Shown here: positions 2,466 to 35,635 of the stretch, one piece after another
Layout of the letters: the number at the start of each line of letters is the position of its first letter
Position numbering within the stretch: the stretch's first letter is position 1
Assembly: GCA_035533755.1 (NCBI GenBank)
Contig: DATLTC010000096.1
Coordinates: 1 to 64,000, forward strand
Reading direction: 5' to 3'
From: Gemmatimonadaceae bacterium
Lineage (GTDB): Bacteria; Gemmatimonadota; Gemmatimonadetes; Gemmatimonadales; Gemmatimonadaceae
Length of the DNA: 64,000 nucleotides
Notes under the pieces: model-generated
The model's database searches: none
Seen by the model: the letters and a program-made list of their open reading frames with translations, nothing else
Told to the model about the DNA's origin: nothing
Position numbers and translations under genes: made by a program

Positions 2466-3622
2466 GCCTGGCCCGGGCGCTCATCCGCACGGATTCGCGC
2501 AATCCGTCGCTCGTGCCCGGCGGCCCGGGCGAAGGCCACGTGGCCGCCGTGCTCCGCGGCGTGCTCGACGCGTGGGGATTCCGCGTGGAGCTGCAGGAGG
2601 TGGCGCCGGGCCGCCCCAACGTGGTGGCGCGGATCGGCACGCCCGGCCCGCACGCGCTGATGTTCAACGGCCACCTCGACGTCGTGGGCGTGGACGGGAT
2701 GACGCATGCCCCGTTCGCCGCCGACGAGCGCGACGGTCGCCTGTACGGACGCGGGTCGTCGGACATGAAGGCGGGCGTGGCGGCGATGTGCGCGGCCGCC
2801 GCCCTCGCCGCCGACGGCCTCACGCACGGCGAGGTGGTCGTGGCCGGCGTGGTGGACGAGGAGTTCGAGAGCCGCGGCACACGCGCCCTCGTGGCCGCCG
2901 GCATCCGGGCCGATGCCGCCGTCGTGACCGAGCCCACGGGACTGGCCATCATGCCCGCGCACCGCGGCTTCGTGTGGGTGGACCTCGTCTTCCACGGCCG
3001 CGCCGCGCACGGCAGCCGGTGGGACCTCGGCGTGGATGCCATCCGCCACGCCGGTCTGGTGCTCGCCGAGCTGGATGCGTTCGACGCCGACGAGTTGCCG
3101 CGGCGTTCCCATCCGCTGCTGGGCCATCCGTCGGTCCACGCCTCGCTCATCGCCGGCGGCTCGGGCATGTCCACGTATCCCGACCGGTGCGAACTCAAGA
3201 TCGAGCGGCGCACGATTCCGGGCGAGACGCCGGCCCAGGTGATGGCCGAAGTGGAAGCCATCTGCGCCAGGGTGCGGGCCCGGCGGCCCGCGTTGCGCGT
3301 GGATGCGCGCCTGTCGCTGGCGCAGAGTCCGAGCGACGTGCCCACCGACGCGCCGATCGTGCGCGCCCTGCGGGATGCGCTGGAGCATCAGGCCATCGAC
3401 GTCCGCACCGAGGGCATGAGCGCGTGGACCGACTGCGCCGTGCTCAACGAGGCCGGCATCCCGGCCGTCTGCTTCGGGCCCGGCGACATGTCGCTCGCCC
3501 ACGCCCATGAGGAATACGTGGAGACGGAACAGATCCGGCGCGCCGCCGCCGTCCTCGAACGGCTGGCGCGCGGGTGGTGCGGCGGCGCGACCAACGGAGT
3601 GGAAGCGCCATGGCGCAACTGA
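2438..3622 (+). CDS. M20 family metallopeptidase (ArgE/DapE/carboxypeptidase type)
   Basis: 394 residues. The zinc-binding residues of the family are visible: H79 and D81 in NGHLDVVG, the bridging D109 in GRGSSDMKAG, the general-base pair E141-E142 in VVDEEFES, E165 in TEPTG, and a late histidine in SLAHAHEEYVE. A dimerisation domain (about 175-285) starts with AHRGFVWVDLVFHGRAAHGS. The family removes acyl or amino-acid groups, as in ArgE, DapE and peptidase T-like enzymes; the exact substrate cannot be read from the sequence. It is translationally coupled with the kinase upstream (28-base overlap), and its end overlaps the start of the next small gene by 13 bases. Confidence 0.85.
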   Translation: MRLERGDAVGLARALIRTDSRNPSLVPGGPGEGHVAAVLRGVLDAWGFRVELQEVAPGRPNVVARIGTPGPHALMFNGHLDVVGVDGMTHAPFAADERDGRLYGRGSSDMKAGVAAMCAAAALAADGLTHGEVVVAGVVDEEFESRGTRALVAAGIRADAAVVTEPTGLAIMPAHRGFVWVDLVFHGRAAHGSRWDLGVDAIRHAGLVLAELDAFDADELPRRSHPLLGHPSVHASLIAGGSGMSTYPDRCELKIERRTIPGETPAQVMAEVEAICARVRARRPALRVDARLSLAQSPSDVPTDAPIVRALRDALEHQAIDVRTEGMSAWTDCAVLNEAGIPAVCFGPGDMSLAHAHEEYVETEQIRRAAAVLERLARGWCGGATNGVEAPWRN

Positions 3623-3828
3623 CCGCCGCCCAGTACGACACGCTCGAGCGGGCCGTGGCGAACTCGCAACGGCTCGTGGTGTACCGCCGGGGTACGGAAT
3701 TCATCGTCGTGCCGGAACGGCTGTGCCTGCACGACCGCCGCGAGGCCATCGAGGCTCGCAACCCCACCACCGGAGACCACCTGACGCTGTTCATCGACGA
3801 GATGGACACCATCGAGGTCGTGCGATGA
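3610..3828 (+). CDS. Small conserved-looking protein of unknown function
   Basis: 72 residues from ATG 3610, inside the last codons of the M20 gene. The sequence alternates strands and short turns (LVVYRRGTEFIVVPERL, then LTLFIDEMDTIEVV) and looks like a small beta-rich domain with no signal or membrane segment. The stop codon overlaps the start of the RNase H-like gene (ATGA at 3825-3828), so the two proteins are made from one message at linked rates. I do not recognise a family. Confidence 0.65.
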   Translation: MAQLTAAQYDTLERAVANSQRLVVYRRGTEFIVVPERLCLHDRREAIEARNPTTGDHLTLFIDEMDTIEVVR

Positions 3829-4466
3829 ACGAGCCCGCTCCCCTGCCCCTGATCGCCATCTATGCCGACGAATCGTGCCTCGGCAACGGGCGCGAGGGAG
3901 ACAACCCGGGAGCCGCCGGGGGCGTGATCGAATTCCGCGGCGCGGAGTCCGGCGCCGTGCAGCGGTGGGACTATTGGCGCTCGGAGCCGGCAACGACCAA
4001 CAATCGCATGGCGCTGCTGAGCGTGATCGAGGCGTTCCAGCTCATCGCGCAGAAGGGGGGCCGGTTCCGCGTCCTGTTCACGAGCGATTCGCAATATCTG
4101 ATCAAGGGCATGAGCGAATGGGTGCCGGGCTGGATGGCGCGCGGTTGGCGCCGCAAGACCGGGCCGATCGAGAATCTGGCCCTGTGGAAGGAGGCCGTGG
4201 AGCGGGTCCGCCCGCACGCGGTCCAGTGGCAATGGGTGCGGGGCCACGACGGCCACGTGCAGAACGAGTACGCCAACCATCTCGCGATCCGGGCAGCAAG
4301 GGAGCAGACGGCTTCGGTGGGCGCCGAGCCGTCCCGGTTCGGCGAATGGCTGGCGGCCGAGCGGGCCGCCCGCCGGATGCACGCCGACCCGGCGCCGTTT
4401 CCCGATCCTCGTAGATTCAAGGCGTCGCGGCCGCTGCCCGTGGCGCAGGCGACGATGCTCGACTAG
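3825..4466 (+). CDS. RNase H type 1-like protein with altered active site
   Basis: 213 residues. The fold is plainly RNase HI: D15 in YADESCLGN (D10 of the E. coli enzyme), TTNNRM at 57-62, D88 in FTSDSQYLIKGM (D70), and WVRGHDGH with H141 (H124). Two of the four metal-binding carboxylates differ. The E48 position is Ala63 (NRMAL instead of NRMEL), and the D134 position is Asn151 (NEYAN instead of NERCD). Loss of E48 severely weakens E. coli RNase HI, while D134N is tolerated there. The protein may therefore bind RNA/DNA hybrids with little cleavage, or use other residues. A C-terminal extension (about 160-213) is Ala/Arg/Pro-rich. It is coupled to the small gene upstream. Confidence 0.85.
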   Translation: MNEPAPLPLIAIYADESCLGNGREGDNPGAAGGVIEFRGAESGAVQRWDYWRSEPATTNNRMALLSVIEAFQLIAQKGGRFRVLFTSDSQYLIKGMSEWVPGWMARGWRRKTGPIENLALWKEAVERVRPHAVQWQWVRGHDGHVQNEYANHLAIRAAREQTASVGAEPSRFGEWLAAERAARRMHADPAPFPDPRRFKASRPLPVAQATMLD

Positions 4467-4477
4467 TGGAGGCCGGG

Positions 4478-29721: not shown

Positions 29722-30567
29722 GTGTCCACGTTTCTCGCGTACCTTCCCGACGCACTGTTTGCCGCGGCCCAGTCCGGCATCCCTGACCTCATCCGCGTGG
29801 GATCACCGGCGGAGGTTCGCGCCCGCATTCGCACCATGAGAGTGGACGGCGTTATCTGCGACCCCGTGGCGGGCGCGGCGTCGGACGCGACCGACATCTT
29901 CTGGCTGGCCACGGATTTTCCCGCCGTCCACATCACGCTGTACACGGTGCTCGAGCCGGGAGTGGCGCAGGTGCTCACGCGGCTGGCGTCGGCCGGCGTC
30001 ACGGACGTCGTGCTGTTCGGTTACGAGGACGCGCCGGGCCGGTGGGGAGATCTGGTGGCTCGCGCTGCGGTGCGCGATGCGGTGACGAGGACGATCGCCG
30101 CGCTGGGGCCGACGTTGAAACAGGTGGGCGGTCCGTTGCGGGACGTCCTGGAGGGTGTCTTTCGCGCGCCGTGCAAGTTCCACACGGTGGACGACATGGC
30201 GGCCGCCGCGGGGCTGACGCGGCGGTCGGTGTATCGCCGGCTCGAGCGCGTGGGTGTCCACGCCGTGCATGACTGGATCGAGGGGGCTCGTCTTACCGGG
30301 GCGTTCGCGTTGCTTCGCGATCCGGCCCGTCAGGTGCGCGACGTGGCAGGCGCCGTCGGGTATGGGGGGCCGCAGGAACTGTCCGCGCGCCTTCGCGGGT
30401 GGACCGGTCGTTCGGTGGCGCAGTTGCGCGAGTCGGTGACGGCCGACGAGTTCGTGGAACACACCGTGGGACGTCTGGCACCCCGGCAGAGGCGCGACGG
30501 GGAGCCCGGTGGCGCGCACGCGCGGGCGGCAGACCGGGCGGGGAACGACGGGCGGCGCCATGCCTGA
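29722..30567 (+). CDS. AraC-type HTH regulator with degenerate receiver-like N-terminus (copy 1)
   Basis: 281 residues from GTG 29722. The N-terminal 110 residues have alternating strands and helices like a receiver fold (DGVICDP, FPAVHITLYTVLE, GVTDVVLFGYED) but lack the acidic pocket, so phosphorylation is unlikely. The C-terminal HTH_AraC domain (about 155-240) reads DDMAAAAGLTRRSVYRRLERVG and VRDVAGAVGYGGPQELSARLRGWTG. A paralogue with the same layout lies at 34410. The 3' end overlaps the downstream TPR gene by 8 bases, so the two proteins are made together and are likely partners. Confidence 0.78.
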   Translation: MSTFLAYLPDALFAAAQSGIPDLIRVGSPAEVRARIRTMRVDGVICDPVAGAASDATDIFWLATDFPAVHITLYTVLEPGVAQVLTRLASAGVTDVVLFGYEDAPGRWGDLVARAAVRDAVTRTIAALGPTLKQVGGPLRDVLEGVFRAPCKFHTVDDMAAAAGLTRRSVYRRLERVGVHAVHDWIEGARLTGAFALLRDPARQVRDVAGAVGYGGPQELSARLRGWTGRSVAQLRESVTADEFVEHTVGRLAPRQRRDGEPGGAHARAADRAGNDGRRHA

Positions 30568-31777
30568 TCCCCGGTCGCGGAGCATCCCGCGGGCCTTCCT
30601 GGACGAGATCGGCCGGCCGGGCGCGGACGACTCGGCGACCCACTCGGCCGTGGCCGGACTGTTGGTGCTCCGGTTGGTGGAGCGATGGGTGACCGGGGGG
30701 TGCCGCGCGCCCGTGGATGTGGCGGGTGCTCGCGCGGCGGTGGAGGCGATGGACACGGGCAATCCTGCGCGCGGGATGCTGGGCGAGGTGCTGTCGGCGA
30801 TCGCCCGGGGCGGCCCGGAGGAGATCGGCGGAGCGTTCGGGCAGCTCATGGCGTACGCGCGGGTGCTCGAGTACGCCGCCCAATGGCCGCTGGCCCTGGC
30901 GGTGTATGAAACGGTGATCGCGAACGGCGGACCGCCGACCCCAAACGACGCTGTGGTTCTGGCGCTCATCCGGCAGGCGTTCTGCCTGCGCATGCAGGGG
31001 CGGTTTGACGAGGCACTCACGCTGTGCAAGTATGCGCGGCGGCTGGCCATCAAGGCCGGTGATCTGGAGGGGGAGTTGCGGGCGGAGCTGGGCGTGGCGA
31101 TGGGGATGATGGCTCAAGGCCACCTGATCGAGGCTGACGCCAAGCTGCGAGCGATCCTGCGCCGGGCCCCGCGCGACAGCCGCGTCTCGATACGGTCCAT
31201 GGTGCTCAACGGGCGGGCAGCGGTGGCCGGCATGCGGGGAGACACCGTCTCCGTCATCCGGCTCGAGTATGCGGCCCTCCGAGAAAATCCGATCCCCTCC
31301 GAGCGCGATCGGATCCTGCACAACATCGGCGAAGCATTCCGAAGGTTGGGCGTGAGAGCGGTCGCGCGTGACGCATTTCTCGTCCTGTCGTGCACCGCCG
31401 AGGAGCAATACATGCGATGGTTCGGCGAGATCCAGTTGATGCTGATCGCCGCTCAAGATGGTGAGGCTGCGGTGTTCGAGGAGCATCGGTCGGCCCTGGA
31501 CTCGGCGGCGCTTCCTCCGCAATTGAGACTCGAGTTTCTCGGGCAACTCGCTGCGAGCCACAGGCTCCTGGGTGAACCGGAGATCGCGGCTTCACTCCTC
31601 CTTGAGGCAGTCCAGCTTGCCCAACGACACGGCTTCGAGTTTGGCGAGCTCGGCACGGAGCCCGGTTCGCTCGACCCGTGCGAGAACGCGGGAGCGATGG
31701 GCCTGTTGCCGCCGCGCATTGCGCGGATCGCCGACGCCATTCGCGCGCTCCGCGAGTCCACCGGGGCGGGCGCCTAA
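30560..31777 (+). CDS. TPR-like helical repeat protein (copy 1)
   Basis: 405 residues from ATG 30560, overlapping the AraC gene end. It is all-helical with repeat-like segments (LMAYARVLEYAAQWPLALAVY, RQAFCLRMQGRFDEALTLCK, SERDRILHNIGEAFRRLGVR), and no catalytic site or signal. A paralogue is encoded at 32835-34067; the two share LMAY.R.LEY, RDAFLVLS.TA.EQY.RW and P.ERDRIL.-IG.AF blocks. TPR proteins beside transcription factors in Gram-positive peptide-signalling systems (RRNPP) bind small peptides; that comparison is inference. The stop lies inside the following hairpin. Confidence 0.75.
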   Translation: MPDPRSRSIPRAFLDEIGRPGADDSATHSAVAGLLVLRLVERWVTGGCRAPVDVAGARAAVEAMDTGNPARGMLGEVLSAIARGGPEEIGGAFGQLMAYARVLEYAAQWPLALAVYETVIANGGPPTPNDAVVLALIRQAFCLRMQGRFDEALTLCKYARRLAIKAGDLEGELRAELGVAMGMMAQGHLIEADAKLRAILRRAPRDSRVSIRSMVLNGRAAVAGMRGDTVSVIRLEYAALRENPIPSERDRILHNIGEAFRRLGVRAVARDAFLVLSCTAEEQYMRWFGEIQLMLIAAQDGEAAVFEEHRSALDSAALPPQLRLEFLGQLAASHRLLGEPEIAASLLLEAVQLAQRHGFEFGELGTEPGSLDPCENAGAMGLLPPRIARIADAIRALRESTGAGA

Positions 31778-31832
31778 CCACGCAGACCGCGCGCACGGAG
31801 GGTCACCCCCGGGCGCGCGGCCTGCGTGGTTA
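31775..31832. terminator. Long hairpin, probable bidirectional terminator
   Basis: Arms at 31775-31794 and 31813-31832 pair over 19 of 20 positions (one mismatch), with an 18-base loop. The hairpin overlaps the stop codon of the first TPR gene and lies 20 bases before the end of the convergent Yip1-like gene. No T-run follows on either strand. Confidence 0.6.
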
Positions 31833-31852
31833 GGGATCGCAGCGACCGGCCG

Positions 31853-32599
31853 TTACGAGGCCCGCCACGCACCGATCAGCGAGGGCAGCATCATCACCAC
31901 CCAGAATCCGATGCCGAGCGCCCACGCCTTGGCCTTGGGCACCTTGCCGATCACGGCAACACCGATCGTGAGGAGCACCACTCCCCAGAGGCTGAACAGC
32001 TCGAATCGGTCGAGCAGAACGCCGACGATCGGCGAGACCGTGTCGGCGTTGAAGAACCGGGCGGGTCCGATCTCGATGCTGAACCGTGAGACGAACGCGG
32101 ACGGATCCATGAGCAGGCCCTGGATCGAGATCACGACGCCCTGCAGCACGCGCGGCACGGCCGCGTAGGCCGCCACGACGAGCGCGGCGTTCCAGGAGAT
32201 CTTGGTGCCCACCAGCTTGGCGCCCACCCACGCGACAAATCCTGAGATCACGACGATGATGGGCACGAAGACCACGGCGCCGATCTGCGCGGCGATCAGG
32301 CCCACCGATCGCGACTTCTCCAGCATCGCCGGGGTGAGCTGCGGGTTGTTCTTCATCGCGGTGGCCATGTTGCGCTGGAATTCGGCGTCGAAGATCGGTT
32401 CCACCACGTGCCGGTTGGCAAATCCCAACAGAGCCAGGAGGACCGTGACTACGAGCAGCGGGATCCAGAAATTTCCGTTGGCGCGCCGCCCGAACACCTG
32501 GGAGGGAGCGTAGAAGATGTCGAGGAAGTCTTCCCAGACCGACGTCTTGTCCTGCACGGCAGGGGGAGCGTCGGGGTGCATCGCGTTGGGGGAGTCCAT
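31853..32599 (-). CDS. Yip1-domain-like membrane protein
   Basis: 248 residues from ATG 32599; a TTG at 32632 would add 11 residues but has no ribosome site. A short N-terminal segment is followed by FLDIFYAPSQVFGR, typical of bacterial Yip1-like proteins. Five or so hydrophobic helices follow (WIPLLVVTVLLALLGFA, FVPIIVVISGFVAWVGA, LFSLWGVVLLTIGVAVIG, ALGIGFWVVMMLPSLIGAW). These proteins sit in the inner membrane; their role in bacteria is not defined. It separates the two TPR genes and is convergent with the first. Confidence 0.75.
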   Translation of the reverse strand: MDSPNAMHPDAPPAVQDKTSVWEDFLDIFYAPSQVFGRRANGNFWIPLLVVTVLLALLGFANRHVVEPIFDAEFQRNMATAMKNNPQLTPAMLEKSRSVGLIAAQIGAVVFVPIIVVISGFVAWVGAKLVGTKISWNAALVVAAYAAVPRVLQGVVISIQGLLMDPSAFVSRFSIEIGPARFFNADTVSPIVGVLLDRFELFSLWGVVLLTIGVAVIGKVPKAKAWALGIGFWVVMMLPSLIGAWRAS

Positions 32600-32725
32600 G
32601 CGATTCTCACTCGGATAGAGGAGGTGGACCAATCAGGAGACTGTTAACGCCTCCGCAAACATCCCCCATGGCACCCGCTCCGTCAATGTGAGCCGCCCTA
32701 TGGGGGTATCATGGTGACCGAGCCC

Positions 32726-32760
32726 TGTCACAAAACGCGACATCGGATGACACAAAACTG
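32726..32760 (+). promoter_or_regulatory. Inverted-repeat operator candidate upstream of TPR gene 2
   Basis: TGTCA (32726-32730) and TGACA (32748-32752) form an inverted repeat with a 17-base spacer containing AAAACGC, followed by CAAAAC. The segment recurs, reversed, at 34362-34393 before the lipopeptide gene. Both copies lie some 80-90 bases before the start codon in the same relative orientation. I propose a shared regulator binding site. Confidence 0.55.
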
Positions 32761-32834
32761 CACTTGTTCTGCGCGTTCGGCAGAGCAATTCTTCGCCCAT
32801 TGGAATGTGATCTCCAGTTCAACGGAGGCAAGAC

Positions 32835-34067
32835 TTGGTATTCGGGAATGAGAGCAGCCTGCGCCACCTTCCGTTTTTCGAGGAAGTAGCGACGCACGAA
32901 GAGCACGAAGCCGAGTGGCGGGCCGCGACGGCCGGCCTCGTCGTGTTGCGGCTTTTCGATGCCTGGCTGGAAGAGGGCGCATCGGCCGTGGTGCCGGATT
33001 CGTGGAACGTGCGCGCCGTGCGCACGGCGATCGAGGAGATGGACGACGGTACGCCCATGCGCGCAATCCTGGGCAGCATTGTTGACGCGATGCAAACCAG
33101 CAAGGGAGCGAACACGCACGAGGCCATGCCGCGCTTGATGGCGTATGGTCGGGCGCTGGAGTATGACGGTCGATGGGCCCTCGCAGTTGACGTCTACGAT
33201 AGCGTCATCGCCCACACCCACCCGGTGGAGGAAAGCGACACCGCCATCGCGGCGAACCTGCAGCGCGGCTTCTGCCTGAGGACGCTCGGTCGGTTCGAGG
33301 AAGCTCAGGTGGCATACACCGCCGCGGGCGCGGTCGCAGAGAGCGTGGGCGACATGATCGGTGTGCTGCGGGGGCGGATCGGCGACGCCAAGCTCGCTGT
33401 GGCACGCGGAAATCTCCCGTACGCCGAGACCGTGTTGGACGAGACCATTGCGGCAGCGGCCCAGCATGGCGTGACGGCCGTCCACTCCCGCGCCTTACAC
33501 GACCGCGCGATGGTGGCGGGCCTTCGAGGGAATCATGAGCTGACCATTCAGCTCGCGTATGAGGCACTACGGGAGTCTGAAACCCCCGCGGAACGTGATC
33601 GCATTCTCAGCGATATCGGTACGGCCTTCCATATGCTCGGGATCAGGAGCGCCGCTCGTGATGCGTTTCTCGTCCTCTCCACCACGGCGCAGGAGCAATA
33701 CACGCGCTGGATGGCCATGCTGTCGTTGATGACGATCGCGGCCGAAGATGGATTCGAGCCCGTGTTCCTGCAGTTTCGGCGCTCGCTCGCGAGCGCGCCG
33801 TTGCCGCCCGAATTACGGACGGAATACTACCTTCGGCTGGGACGTTCGCACCGCGCGCTGGGCCAGGACGACCCCAGCCAGATCGCATTTGCCAAGGCCG
33901 TCCAACTGGCGGAGCATCACGGATTCAACACGCTGCTGTTCGAAGCTGAGCAGCTGCTCGCAGCGTCAAGCCCAGAACCAAGCAGTTCGAATACCACGCC
34001 TGACACCGTGGCCGACATCGTTGAAGCCGTACGCGGTATGCGCGAATTGACCGTGTCGACGAGATAG
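32835..34067 (+). CDS. TPR-like helical repeat protein (copy 2)
   Basis: 410 residues from TTG 32835. The TTG is chosen because GGAGG lies 7 bases upstream and no other start has one. Like copy 1 it is fully helical with TPR-like units (LMAYGRALEYDGRWALAVDVYD, LQRGFCLRTLGRFEEAQVAY, PAERDRILSDIGTAFHMLG). It lacks a signal, zinc site or enzymatic motif. It ends 5 bases before a hairpin shared with the convergent lipopeptide gene. Its promoter region carries the same motif as the lipopeptide/AraC intergenic region, so these genes are likely controlled together. Confidence 0.77.
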   Translation: MVFGNESSLRHLPFFEEVATHEEHEAEWRAATAGLVVLRLFDAWLEEGASAVVPDSWNVRAVRTAIEEMDDGTPMRAILGSIVDAMQTSKGANTHEAMPRLMAYGRALEYDGRWALAVDVYDSVIAHTHPVEESDTAIAANLQRGFCLRTLGRFEEAQVAYTAAGAVAESVGDMIGVLRGRIGDAKLAVARGNLPYAETVLDETIAAAAQHGVTAVHSRALHDRAMVAGLRGNHELTIQLAYEALRESETPAERDRILSDIGTAFHMLGIRSAARDAFLVLSTTAQEQYTRWMAMLSLMTIAAEDGFEPVFLQFRRSLASAPLPPELRTEYYLRLGRSHRALGQDDPSQIAFAKAVQLAEHHGFNTLLFEAEQLLAASSPEPSSSNTTPDTVADIVEAVRGMRELTVSTR

Positions 34068-34071
34068 ACAA

Positions 34072-34097
34072 AGGGCCACGGCGCGAACCGTGGCCCT
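34072..34097. terminator. Bidirectional hairpin terminator
   Basis: A 10-base-pair perfect stem at 34072-34081 and 34088-34097 with a 6-base loop sits between the convergent stops of the second TPR gene (34067) and the lipopeptide gene (34120). It can serve both strands. Confidence 0.68.
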
Positions 34098-34119
34098 CGG
34101 TAGGGGTGAAGCGTTGGGA

Positions 34120-34272
34120 CTAGCTGCCCGATCCCATGTATCCACCCAAGCAGGTCACCGTGCTGGACGGGACGCAGGTATCATTTTTCGGAGCCGTCGG
34201 GCTCGCGCAGGCGGCCATCACAACGGAGGCAACGGCCAGGACGAGGTAGGTGATCTTCTTGCGGCGCGACAT
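34120..34272 (-). CDS. 50-residue exported lipoprotein-like peptide
   Basis: A short gene that is easily missed. The product starts MSRRKKITYLVLAVASVVMA and continues A-C at residues 21-22, a lipobox-like end for the signal peptide. The mature part is 29 residues, with SPTAP after the Cys and two more Cys at 33 and 41, and a Gly/Ser-rich end. GGGAG lies 8 bases before the ATG at 34272. It may be a lipidated peptide in the envelope or a precursor processed further. It is divergent from an AraC-type gene and convergent with a TPR gene. The size resembles signal-peptide precursors, but nothing proves signalling. Confidence 0.68.
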   Translation of the reverse strand: MSRRKKITYLVLAVASVVMAACASPTAPKNDTCVPSSTVTCLGGYMGSGS

Positions 34273-34361
34273 GGGGCGATCTCCCAGATTTGAGCAGAAG
34301 TTTCCGTGACGGGGAACGACTGATCGAGAAGCTAGGGTCGCCAGCCGGTGCGTAAACTCGC

Positions 34362-34393
34362 ATTTTGTGTCATCGGATAGCGTTTTTATGACA
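34362..34393 (-). promoter_or_regulatory. Inverted-repeat operator candidate between lipopeptide and AraC genes
   Basis: TGTCA at 34368-34372 and TGACA at 34389-34393 form the same inverted repeat as upstream of TPR gene 2, with a 16-base spacer (17 there) that includes AGCGTTTTT, the complement of AAAAACGCT. It ends 16 bases before the GTG of the AraC gene, so binding would block that gene's translation start region or promoter, and it lies about 95 bases upstream of the lipopeptide start. Confidence 0.55.
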
Positions 34394-34409
34394 CTCGGCC
34401 CCCTGAGGC

Positions 34410-35207
34410 GTGGACGTCGTCGCCCTCCTTCCCCGGCATCTTCTCACTCACCTGAGACTCGTACTCGGCCCGGAGCACACCCTCTCCGCCTCGGCGGACT
34501 GGATGGAGCTTCGCGCTACGGTGCAGAGCCGCATCGTTGACGTCGTCGTCGCGGATCCCGCGCTCGACGGAGTGGTGCACGTGGACACGCTGGCCGAGAT
34601 CCGGGAACTGTTCCCGTCCCTCCCCATCGTGCTCTACTCCACCCTCAGCGCGGCCGCGATGCAGGGCGTGGTCCAACTCGCCAGACACGGCGTGGAGCAC
34701 ATCGTGCTCAACCGGTTTGACGACGACCCCAAGCGCTTTCTCGAACTCCTCGAGCGAGTGCCGGCCCACGCCCTCGGCGAACGGATGCTGCGCGCACTGC
34801 GCGAGCCCATCGCCAAGCTGCCCGTGACGGTTGGCAGGGCCATCGAACAGCTGTACCGGTCCCCGGCCGGCTTCCATGGCGCCCGGGAGCTGGCGGAAGC
34901 CGGCGGCACCAACACTCGCGGACTCTACCGGTACATGGTGGCCGCGGGGATGCCCTCGGTGAAGGCGGTGGTGGTATCGGCACGACTCATCCGGGCATAT
35001 GCTTACCTGCGGGACCCCGGAAGATCGATCAAGGAAATCGCGGCCCGGGTGGGTTACAACCGGCCCTGGCTGCTCACAAAACAGATGCGTGAATTCACGG
35101 GGTACACGCCCAGCGAGGTGCGGGACGCGCTACCCCCCGAAGAGTTCGTAAAGCTGCTGGCCACGCGAGTGCGGGCGGCGCAGCATGACGAGGACGGCGA
35201 GCCCTGA
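34410..35207 (+). CDS. AraC-type HTH regulator with degenerate receiver-like N-terminus (copy 2)
   Basis: 265 residues from GTG 34410. The N-terminal part (about 1-120) has the strand/helix pattern of a receiver (IVDVVVADPALDGV, FPSLPIVLYSTLSAAAMQ, GVEHIVLNRFDDD) but no Asp pocket in the expected places. The C-terminal HTH_AraC (about 160-245) includes RELAEAGGTNTRGLYRYM and IKEIAARVGYNRPWLLTKQM. It matches copy 1 in order and style. The response-regulator gene follows after 35 bases on the same strand, so both may be cotranscribed. Confidence 0.8.
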   Translation: MDVVALLPRHLLTHLRLVLGPEHTLSASADWMELRATVQSRIVDVVVADPALDGVVHVDTLAEIRELFPSLPIVLYSTLSAAAMQGVVQLARHGVEHIVLNRFDDDPKRFLELLERVPAHALGERMLRALREPIAKLPVTVGRAIEQLYRSPAGFHGARELAEAGGTNTRGLYRYMVAAGMPSVKAVVVSARLIRAYAYLRDPGRSIKEIAARVGYNRPWLLTKQMREFTGYTPSEVRDALPPEEFVKLLATRVRAAQHDEDGEP

Positions 35208-35242
35208 CCAGGCGCTCCCGTCCACAGCTGGAGGACGGAGCG

Positions 35243-35635
35243 GTGCACGGGACGCCAATTCGAGTACTCATCGTCGACGATGAGGCCGCAATCTGCAAAG
35301 CACTCTCCATCGCGCTCACGCGCGCTGGATTCGACGTCCGCACCGCACTCAGCGGAGACGCTGGCGTTGCCGTGCTCAAGAAGGAGCCCGTTGACGTCCT
35401 CGTCCTCGACCTGCGCCTTCAAGACATGCGCGGCGACGTCATGTTCGAGTTGGCCAAAGCCGAGCAGCCGCACCTCAAGCACAGCACGCTGTTCATGACG
35501 GGCGACATCACCGAGAAGGCGGACCGGATCATCCGCAACTGCGACTGTCCGCTGCTTCGCAAGCCATTCGAGCTGCGCGACCTGACCAACATCGTCAGCG
35601 CCATGGCACCCAAGGCCCGCGACGTCTCGGCCTGA
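35243..35635 (+). CDS. Single-domain response regulator
   Basis: 130 residues from GTG 35243, with GGAGG 8 bases upstream. All receiver residues are present: D12-D13 in LIVDDEAA, phosphorylation site D56 in LVLDLRL, T86 in FMTGD and K107 in RKPFE. It has no output domain and no kinase beside it, so it must be phosphorylated by a kinase encoded elsewhere and act by contact. Position next to the AraC gene suggests it may control that regulator. Confidence 0.85.
   Translation: MHGTPIRVLIVDDEAAICKALSIALTRAGFDVRTALSGDAGVAVLKKEPVDVLVLDLRLQDMRGDVMFELAKAEQPHLKHSTLFMTGDITEKADRIIRNCDCPLLRKPFELRDLTNIVSAMAPKARDVSA

Follow-up and report, generated by a model that had tools for sequence, protein, structure and literature searches.

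Among described systems, those closest to the one reported here include Rap-Phr, which belongs to the RRNPP (or RRNPPA) systems of Bacillota. In Rap-Phr, a tetratricopeptide repeat (TPR) protein without a helix-turn-helix (HTH) stands beside a small exported propeptide, a partner with a receiver domain is found nearby, and tandemly repeated pheromone units are known. PlcR-PapR, NprR-NprX, and AimR-AimP also combine a TPR receptor with a short C-terminal signal peptide, with self-activation in some of them, and their receptors carry a DNA-binding domain of their own. At araBAD, an AraC-type protein acts on a divergent target through 21-bp direct half-sites beside the -35 box, while the signal of the enterococcal sex pheromones (PrgX/cCF10) derives from a lipoprotein precursor. 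The surveys consulted here describe RRNPP systems in Firmicutes/Bacillota only (PMC10075063, PMC9765709, PMC12700828). Here, we describe a locus from the diderm phylum Gemmatimonadota, found in a 64,000-nucleotide stretch of DNA from a Gemmatimonadaceae bacterium (contig DATLTC010000096.1, hereafter the window; source genome of 3.25 Mb in 103 contigs), in which a TPR protein (TPR2), a small lipopeptide precursor, an AraC-type regulator (AraC2), and a response regulator are encoded together. With a probability of roughly 60%, we propose that TPR2, the peptide, and AraC2, perhaps with the response regulator, form a self-activating peptide-signaling circuit that has RRNPP-like logic and an AraC-type output.

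The locus shares with Rap-Phr an HTH-less TPR protein of similar modeled fold beside a small exported propeptide, a receiver-domain partner nearby, and, in relatives, the tandem repetition of putative signal units. It differs in that the phylum is diderm, the propeptide is a lipopeptide with a signal peptidase II (SPII) signal and often a Cys pair, the peptide gene lies antisense between the TPR and regulator genes, and the regulator is of the AraC type with a degenerate receiver; furthermore, the two are not clearly related in sequence, the best match to a Rap protein being partial, with E 0.006. Unlike PlcR, NprR, and AimR, the putative receptor would leave DNA binding to a separate AraC protein. 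The likeness to araBAD lies in the AraC-type protein, the divergent target, and the predicted 21-bp direct half-sites beside the -35 box, whereas the N-terminal domain is receiver-like instead of a cupin and the targets would be the peptide and TPR genes. Finally, the PrgX/cCF10 signal is located within the signal sequence of a larger lipoprotein, while the precursor described here is small and dedicated, with the conserved units at its C-terminus. The features of the locus are as follows.

32835-34067, + strand: TPR2, proposed cytoplasmic peptide receptor, TTG start, 410 amino acids (homology, AF2 model, fold search).
34120-34272, - strand: lipopeptide precursor, 50 amino acids, with an SPII signal, a lipidated Cys22, one Cys pair, and the C-terminus ..GGYMGSGS (signal rule, conservation).
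34329-34356, - strand: predicted peptide promoter, -35 TTTACG (34351-34356), 16 bp, -10 TAGCTT (34329-34334) (same operator distance in many relatives).
34363-34393, + strand: predicted operator in the region where the peptide and AraC2 genes diverge, consisting of direct repeats TTTTGTGTCA-N11-TTTTATGACA with a 21-bp period (repeat and motif analysis).
34410-35207, + strand: AraC2, degenerate receiver-like domain and AraC HTH, proposed activator of the peptide and TPR2 genes (Pfam, AF2 model).
35243-35635, + strand: stand-alone response regulator (CheY-like), accessory of the unit (complete receiver, Pfam 54 bits).
32726-32757, - strand: predicted operator upstream of TPR2 and facing it, half-sites TTTTGTGTCA / TTTTGTGACA 22 bp apart (motif search).
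29722-30567, + strand: AraC1, regulator with a pseudo-receiver and an AraC HTH, a paralogue without its own peptide (Pfam; conserved beside TPR1 in the same genus, L064).
30560-31777, + strand: TPR1, Rap-like TPR protein, overlapping AraC1 by 8 bases.
31853-32632, opposite strand: unrelated gene for a Yip1-family membrane protein, separating the two regulator sets.

A preliminary description of this region had named two AraC paralogues, two TPR paralogues, a 50-residue exported peptide, and an orphan response regulator. All are present where it had placed them, and the orphan regulator (35243-35635) is a complete stand-alone receiver. The 8-base overlap that it had noted between a regulator and a TPR gene also exists and belongs to AraC1 and TPR1 (30560-30567). 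What it had seen as a single island is really two gene sets, AraC1-TPR1 and TPR2-peptide-AraC2-response regulator, split by the Yip1-family gene, with a peptide only in the second. Its view of the whole as one RRNPP-like unit is supported in part, by the conserved TPR2-peptide-AraC2 core, and not by AraC1-TPR1, which has no peptide of its own, or by the response regulator, which is an accessory in some lineages only.

The TPR-peptide-AraC unit recurs well beyond the window. In 60 related genomes plus larger draws, TPR and AraC genes of the family adjoin each other across a gap of about 250 to 600 bases. The preliminary description had made its proposal depend on co-occurrence of the paralogues with a small exported peptide elsewhere, and we found an antisense SPII lipopeptide in 45 of 46 distinct TPR-AraC gaps, 41 by a fixed automatic rule that itself requires an SPII signal and 4 by eye once gene edges were relaxed. 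The same rule returned no lipopeptides on the sense strand of these gaps, and the control rates were 6/920 for shuffled gaps and 2/853 for random windows. We rejected a chance small open reading frame as the source of the peptide on the basis of the shuffled and random controls, together with the synonymous bias in the repeats described below. The gene set is beyond chance because the TPR-peptide-AraC order is found repeatedly throughout the phylum. In the contig collection, all relatives of TPR2 come from Gemmatimonadota, mostly Gemmatimonadaceae. The TPR family was present in 180 of 395 sampled Gemmatimonadota genomes (79 of 138 genera), and this gene order with an antisense lipopeptide also occurs in other families of the class. 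In 40 of 60 loci, the gene right after AraC encodes a stand-alone receiver, which one of these other families, f5, lacks; the receiver is therefore an accessory member of the unit. Genomes of a distant, multi-copy family, f6 (L213-L242), contain up to 9 related TPR matches each. Many of these matches have an AraC gene next to them, together with an antisense lipopeptide whose C-terminus reads GSGG or GSGS. This suggests several parallel sets per genome in that family.

The N-terminus of the window peptide (MSRRKKITYLVLAVASVVMAACASPTAPKNDTCVPSSTVTCLGGYMGSGS) is positively charged and is followed by a hydrophobic stretch, and its lipobox is MAAC; the label of lipopeptide is apt because of this lipoprotein signal. 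Judged from its sequence, it should mature to a lipidated form of 29 residues. NCBIfam holds no named family for TPR2 or the peptide. The mature part is short in the window's family, with a median of 26 residues across peptides. GSG occurs within the last 8 residues of 33 of 85 peptides, compared with 1.3 expected from shuffled mature parts. A GSG ending is seen in many single-copy peptides, including that of the window (GGYMGSGS), and peptides of the distant family f6 end in MMGSGS, MLGSGG, or FGSGG. Beyond the lipidated Cys, exactly two extra Cys residues are present in 58 peptides and none in 26, while no peptide has one or three. Peptides with such a pair are probably disulfide bonded, which suggests that they reside outside the cytoplasm. 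Within the window's genus, the signal sequence is 86-90% identical, while identity of the mature peptide drops to 50-60%, as would be expected of diversifying signals, although neutral drift of a short tail could produce it as well.

The C-terminus takes a different form in family f5, where peptides end in 2-8 copies of a mostly 7-residue unit. Arrays include three copies of HNPDSGN, seven of YTPDPGA, four of HGPDAGS, three, four, or six of HTLGSGN, eight of GTLGSGN, and seven of HTPDPGS (one of these being YTPDPGS), among others. When all units in register were counted (17 arrays, 68 units), neighboring units differed by 173 synonymous versus 7 nonsynonymous codon changes. Silent sites have drifted while residues were kept, which points to protein-level selection on each unit, and by this measure the tandem units are old. 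They mostly end at the stop codon; the window peptide has a single copy. Two loci of the window's own family (L097 and L100) encode peptides with another type of tandem unit, DFVNPNV/DFVNPNA. Tandem duplication in pheromone propeptides is a recognized feature of RRNPPA systems, and propeptides with identical or near-identical repeats of the pheromone have been described for AimR, NprR, Rap, and PlcR (PMC9765709, PMC11343458).

The region between the divergent peptide and AraC genes contains a TTTTGTGACA-type half-site that is repeated in direct orientation with a 21-bp spacing. Repeats with this spacing occur in 35 of 46 gaps, and the best 11-mer match averaged 8.9 of 11 here, compared with about 6 for most other spacings. 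The predicted sites have the arrangement expected for AraC/XylS regulators, that is, direct half-sites about 21 bp apart near a -35 box. In the core clade, a promoter (TTTACG-N16-TAgctT) faces the peptide gene six bases past the proximal half-site, and the predicted operator sits at the position of a class II activator. The version of the half-site varies by lineage (GTGACA, AGGACA, GCGACA, or CCTATCA), and 13 of 39 loci, that of the window among them, carry the version of their own lineage a second time, upstream of the TPR gene and oriented toward it. In the window's 3.25-Mb genome, the tandem site occurs exactly twice: in the peptide/AraC2 gap and upstream of TPR2. A related general form of the operator, which is stricter and does not match the window's own GTGTCA half-site, was found at 10 sites in 60 genomes, 8 of them at TPR/peptide/AraC loci, compared with 0 for a reversed control pattern. 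With this strict operator, no large regulon was found in the 60 genomes, the only extra sites being one at L243:1097-1127 before the gene of a 453-amino-acid lipoprotein (1289-2650) and one at about 4545-4575 of L244 before a PLD-like gene (3415-4470). Both genes are possible outputs. In family f5 (L164-L170, L174), the conserved element ahead of AraC is another one, TATGTCTTTTTCGAAGAT.

Both regulators, which are about 30% identical, contain the AraC double HTH (Pfam HTH_18, 43.4 bits for AraC1 and 46.1 bits for AraC2, with a cutoff of 33.6). The AF2 model of AraC2 (predicted local distance difference test [pLDDT] of 90.5) combines this double HTH with a receiver-like domain, for which a fold search returned receiver folds. 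The receiver-like fold and AraC HTH attributed earlier to these proteins are borne out, except that the receiver-like domain of AraC2 is degenerate. Specifically, Asp-49 and Pro-50 are invariant among its relatives and the Thr/Ser position is kept, but of the residues expected in a phosphorylatable response regulator (acidic pair, phospho-Asp, Thr/Ser, and Lys), the acidic pair and Lys are missing, which makes normal phosphorylation of AraC2 unlikely. In the genus, the AraC1-TPR1 pair (29722-31777), which has neither its own peptide nor a tandem operator, is kept next to the set that has the peptide. We speculate that it is a receiver without its own signal, listening to the same or another peptide.

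TPR1 and TPR2 are approximately 40-41% identical and are the sole two family members found in the genome. For the AF2 model of TPR2 (pLDDT 93.2), the closest solved folds (Foldseek, VIA-align) include Rap (Z 24.8 and 24.7), MalT domain III (23.9), NprR (22.1), and AimR (20.4). Because generic TPR superhelices and MalT score alike, the fold is compatible with an RRNPP-type receptor and is not proof of one. Pfam returns generic TPR matches only, and a search of the viral structure library gave mostly the same. When the TPR2 profile was compared with the PDB, RapJ (E 0.006, partial) and NprR (E 0.045) ranked behind generic TPR proteins such as LGN. In related pairs, which overlap and include some duplicates, the TPR protein diverges faster than AraC (mean identity of 61% versus 73%). 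A published criterion for RRNPP systems is a TPR receptor of about 250-500 amino acids beside an exported propeptide of 10-100 amino acids (PMC10075063). TPR2, with 410 amino acids, adjoins a 50-amino-acid peptide that has an SPII signal by rule, and so agrees with that criterion in size and adjacency. The TPR proteins of family f5 (L164-L170, L174) are extended at the N-terminus by about 200 residues that have no Pfam match.

In the circuit that we propose, AraC2 would bind a pair of TTTTGTGACA-type half-sites separated by one 21-bp period, and it would activate, rather than repress, the peptide gene from a class II position beside the -35 box. In the window's lineage and some relatives, it would activate TPR2 as well. 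Sec would export the peptide, which would be cleaved by signal peptidase II, become lipidated, and accumulate. The signal would be its C-terminal part, of the GSG type or, in relatives, made of tandem, mostly 7-residue units. After processing and re-uptake, this signal may bind the cytoplasmic Rap-like TPR protein, which in turn could relay it to the degenerate receiver domain of AraC2, the stand-alone receiver, or both. The RRNPP-like logic suggested in the preliminary description is partly supported by the linkage, the tandem units of mostly 7 residues in relatives, and the Rap/NprR-like TPR fold, with the restriction that the fold match is not exclusive to RRNPP. We place the system under peptide signaling and not as a member of RRNPP.

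An argument can be made against such a circuit. A lipidated precursor in a diderm cell would be an unusual pheromone source, the locus has no linked gene for a processing protease or an importer, and Cys-paired C-termini (..GSGTCH) are unlike linear Phr-type peptides. The TPR-upstream operator is present in only about one third of the loci tested, and the operator matches almost no target outside the circuit. Furthermore, AraC1-TPR1 is a pair without a peptide, and human APPBP2 (Z 24.8), subunits of the anaphase-promoting complex (APC/C), LGN, and MalT match the TPR2 fold alike.

Alternatively, the lipopeptide could report on lipoprotein export with no cell-cell signal: upon failure of export or maturation, the precursor or its C-terminus would stay in the cytoplasm and be bound by the TPR protein, shifting AraC2 activity. 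The SPII signal is kept in every copy found (the detection rule asks for one), the TPR protein is cytoplasmic, repeats would raise avidity, and no importer would be needed. However, the Cys pairs imply an oxidizing compartment as the site of action of the mature form, there are almost no envelope-stress targets in the circuit, and the C-terminus diverges strongly within a genus. We consider this explanation improbable. An equally poor prospect, in our judgment, is that the peptide is itself the product, for example a surface adhesin, a coat, or a lytic or entericidin-like lipoprotein, and that the TPR protein and AraC2 only control its expression on another cue. The peptide gene is indeed the main conserved target of the operator, and surface proteins also carry tandem repeats. 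Yet the mature part has a median of only 26 residues, the TPR-peptide linkage is held across the phylum, with an operator common to both in part of it, and 2-8 copies of one 7-mer with a 173:7 synonymous bias fit a short recognized unit better than a structural tail. Least probable is an internal feedback loop, a developmental timer in which TPR2 would counteract activation by AraC2, as Rap does with ComA, and the peptide would tune this only inside the producing cell. The self-contained regulon and the fixed chromosomal place near rho and omp85, away from mobile elements, favor it. Against it are an export signal and Cys pairing that point outside the cytoplasm, as well as several paralogous sets per genome in one family that resemble parallel signaling channels.

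The arrangement with a Yip1-family gene between both regulator sets is repeated in close relatives. Within Gemmatimonadaceae, genes for a penicillin-binding protein/deacetylase and rho/omp85 are repeatedly found close to the locus. A mobile-element origin was rejected, as TPR2 is without matches in plasmid or phage collections and the locus is chromosomally fixed. A biosynthetic cluster for a ribosomally synthesized and post-translationally modified peptide (RiPP) was also rejected, as the identified conserved neighbors are housekeeping genes and no maturase was seen.

Our literature search found nothing that links Gemmatimonadota with peptide pheromones and nothing nearer than the systems compared above, although its coverage was incomplete, so that novelty is not proven. 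We put at about even odds a broader claim, namely, that a pheromone system exists throughout this diderm phylum in which secreted lipopeptide precursors give rise to short signals, of the GSG type or tandem heptapeptides, and Rap-like TPR receptors read these and act on pseudo-receiver AraC proteins. It would be the first TPR-read peptide quorum sensing outside Bacillota, with several parallel channels per genome in one family. Such a phylum-wide circuit would also provide defined candidate signals (e.g., HTLGSGN and HNPDSGN) that can be synthesized and are directly testable in a phylum that is abundant and barely studied. If the proposed circuit is true, it would provide an outgroup or a convergent case for the evolution of RRNPP systems, and TPR-read peptide communication would extend beyond Gram-positive bacteria to a diderm phylum.

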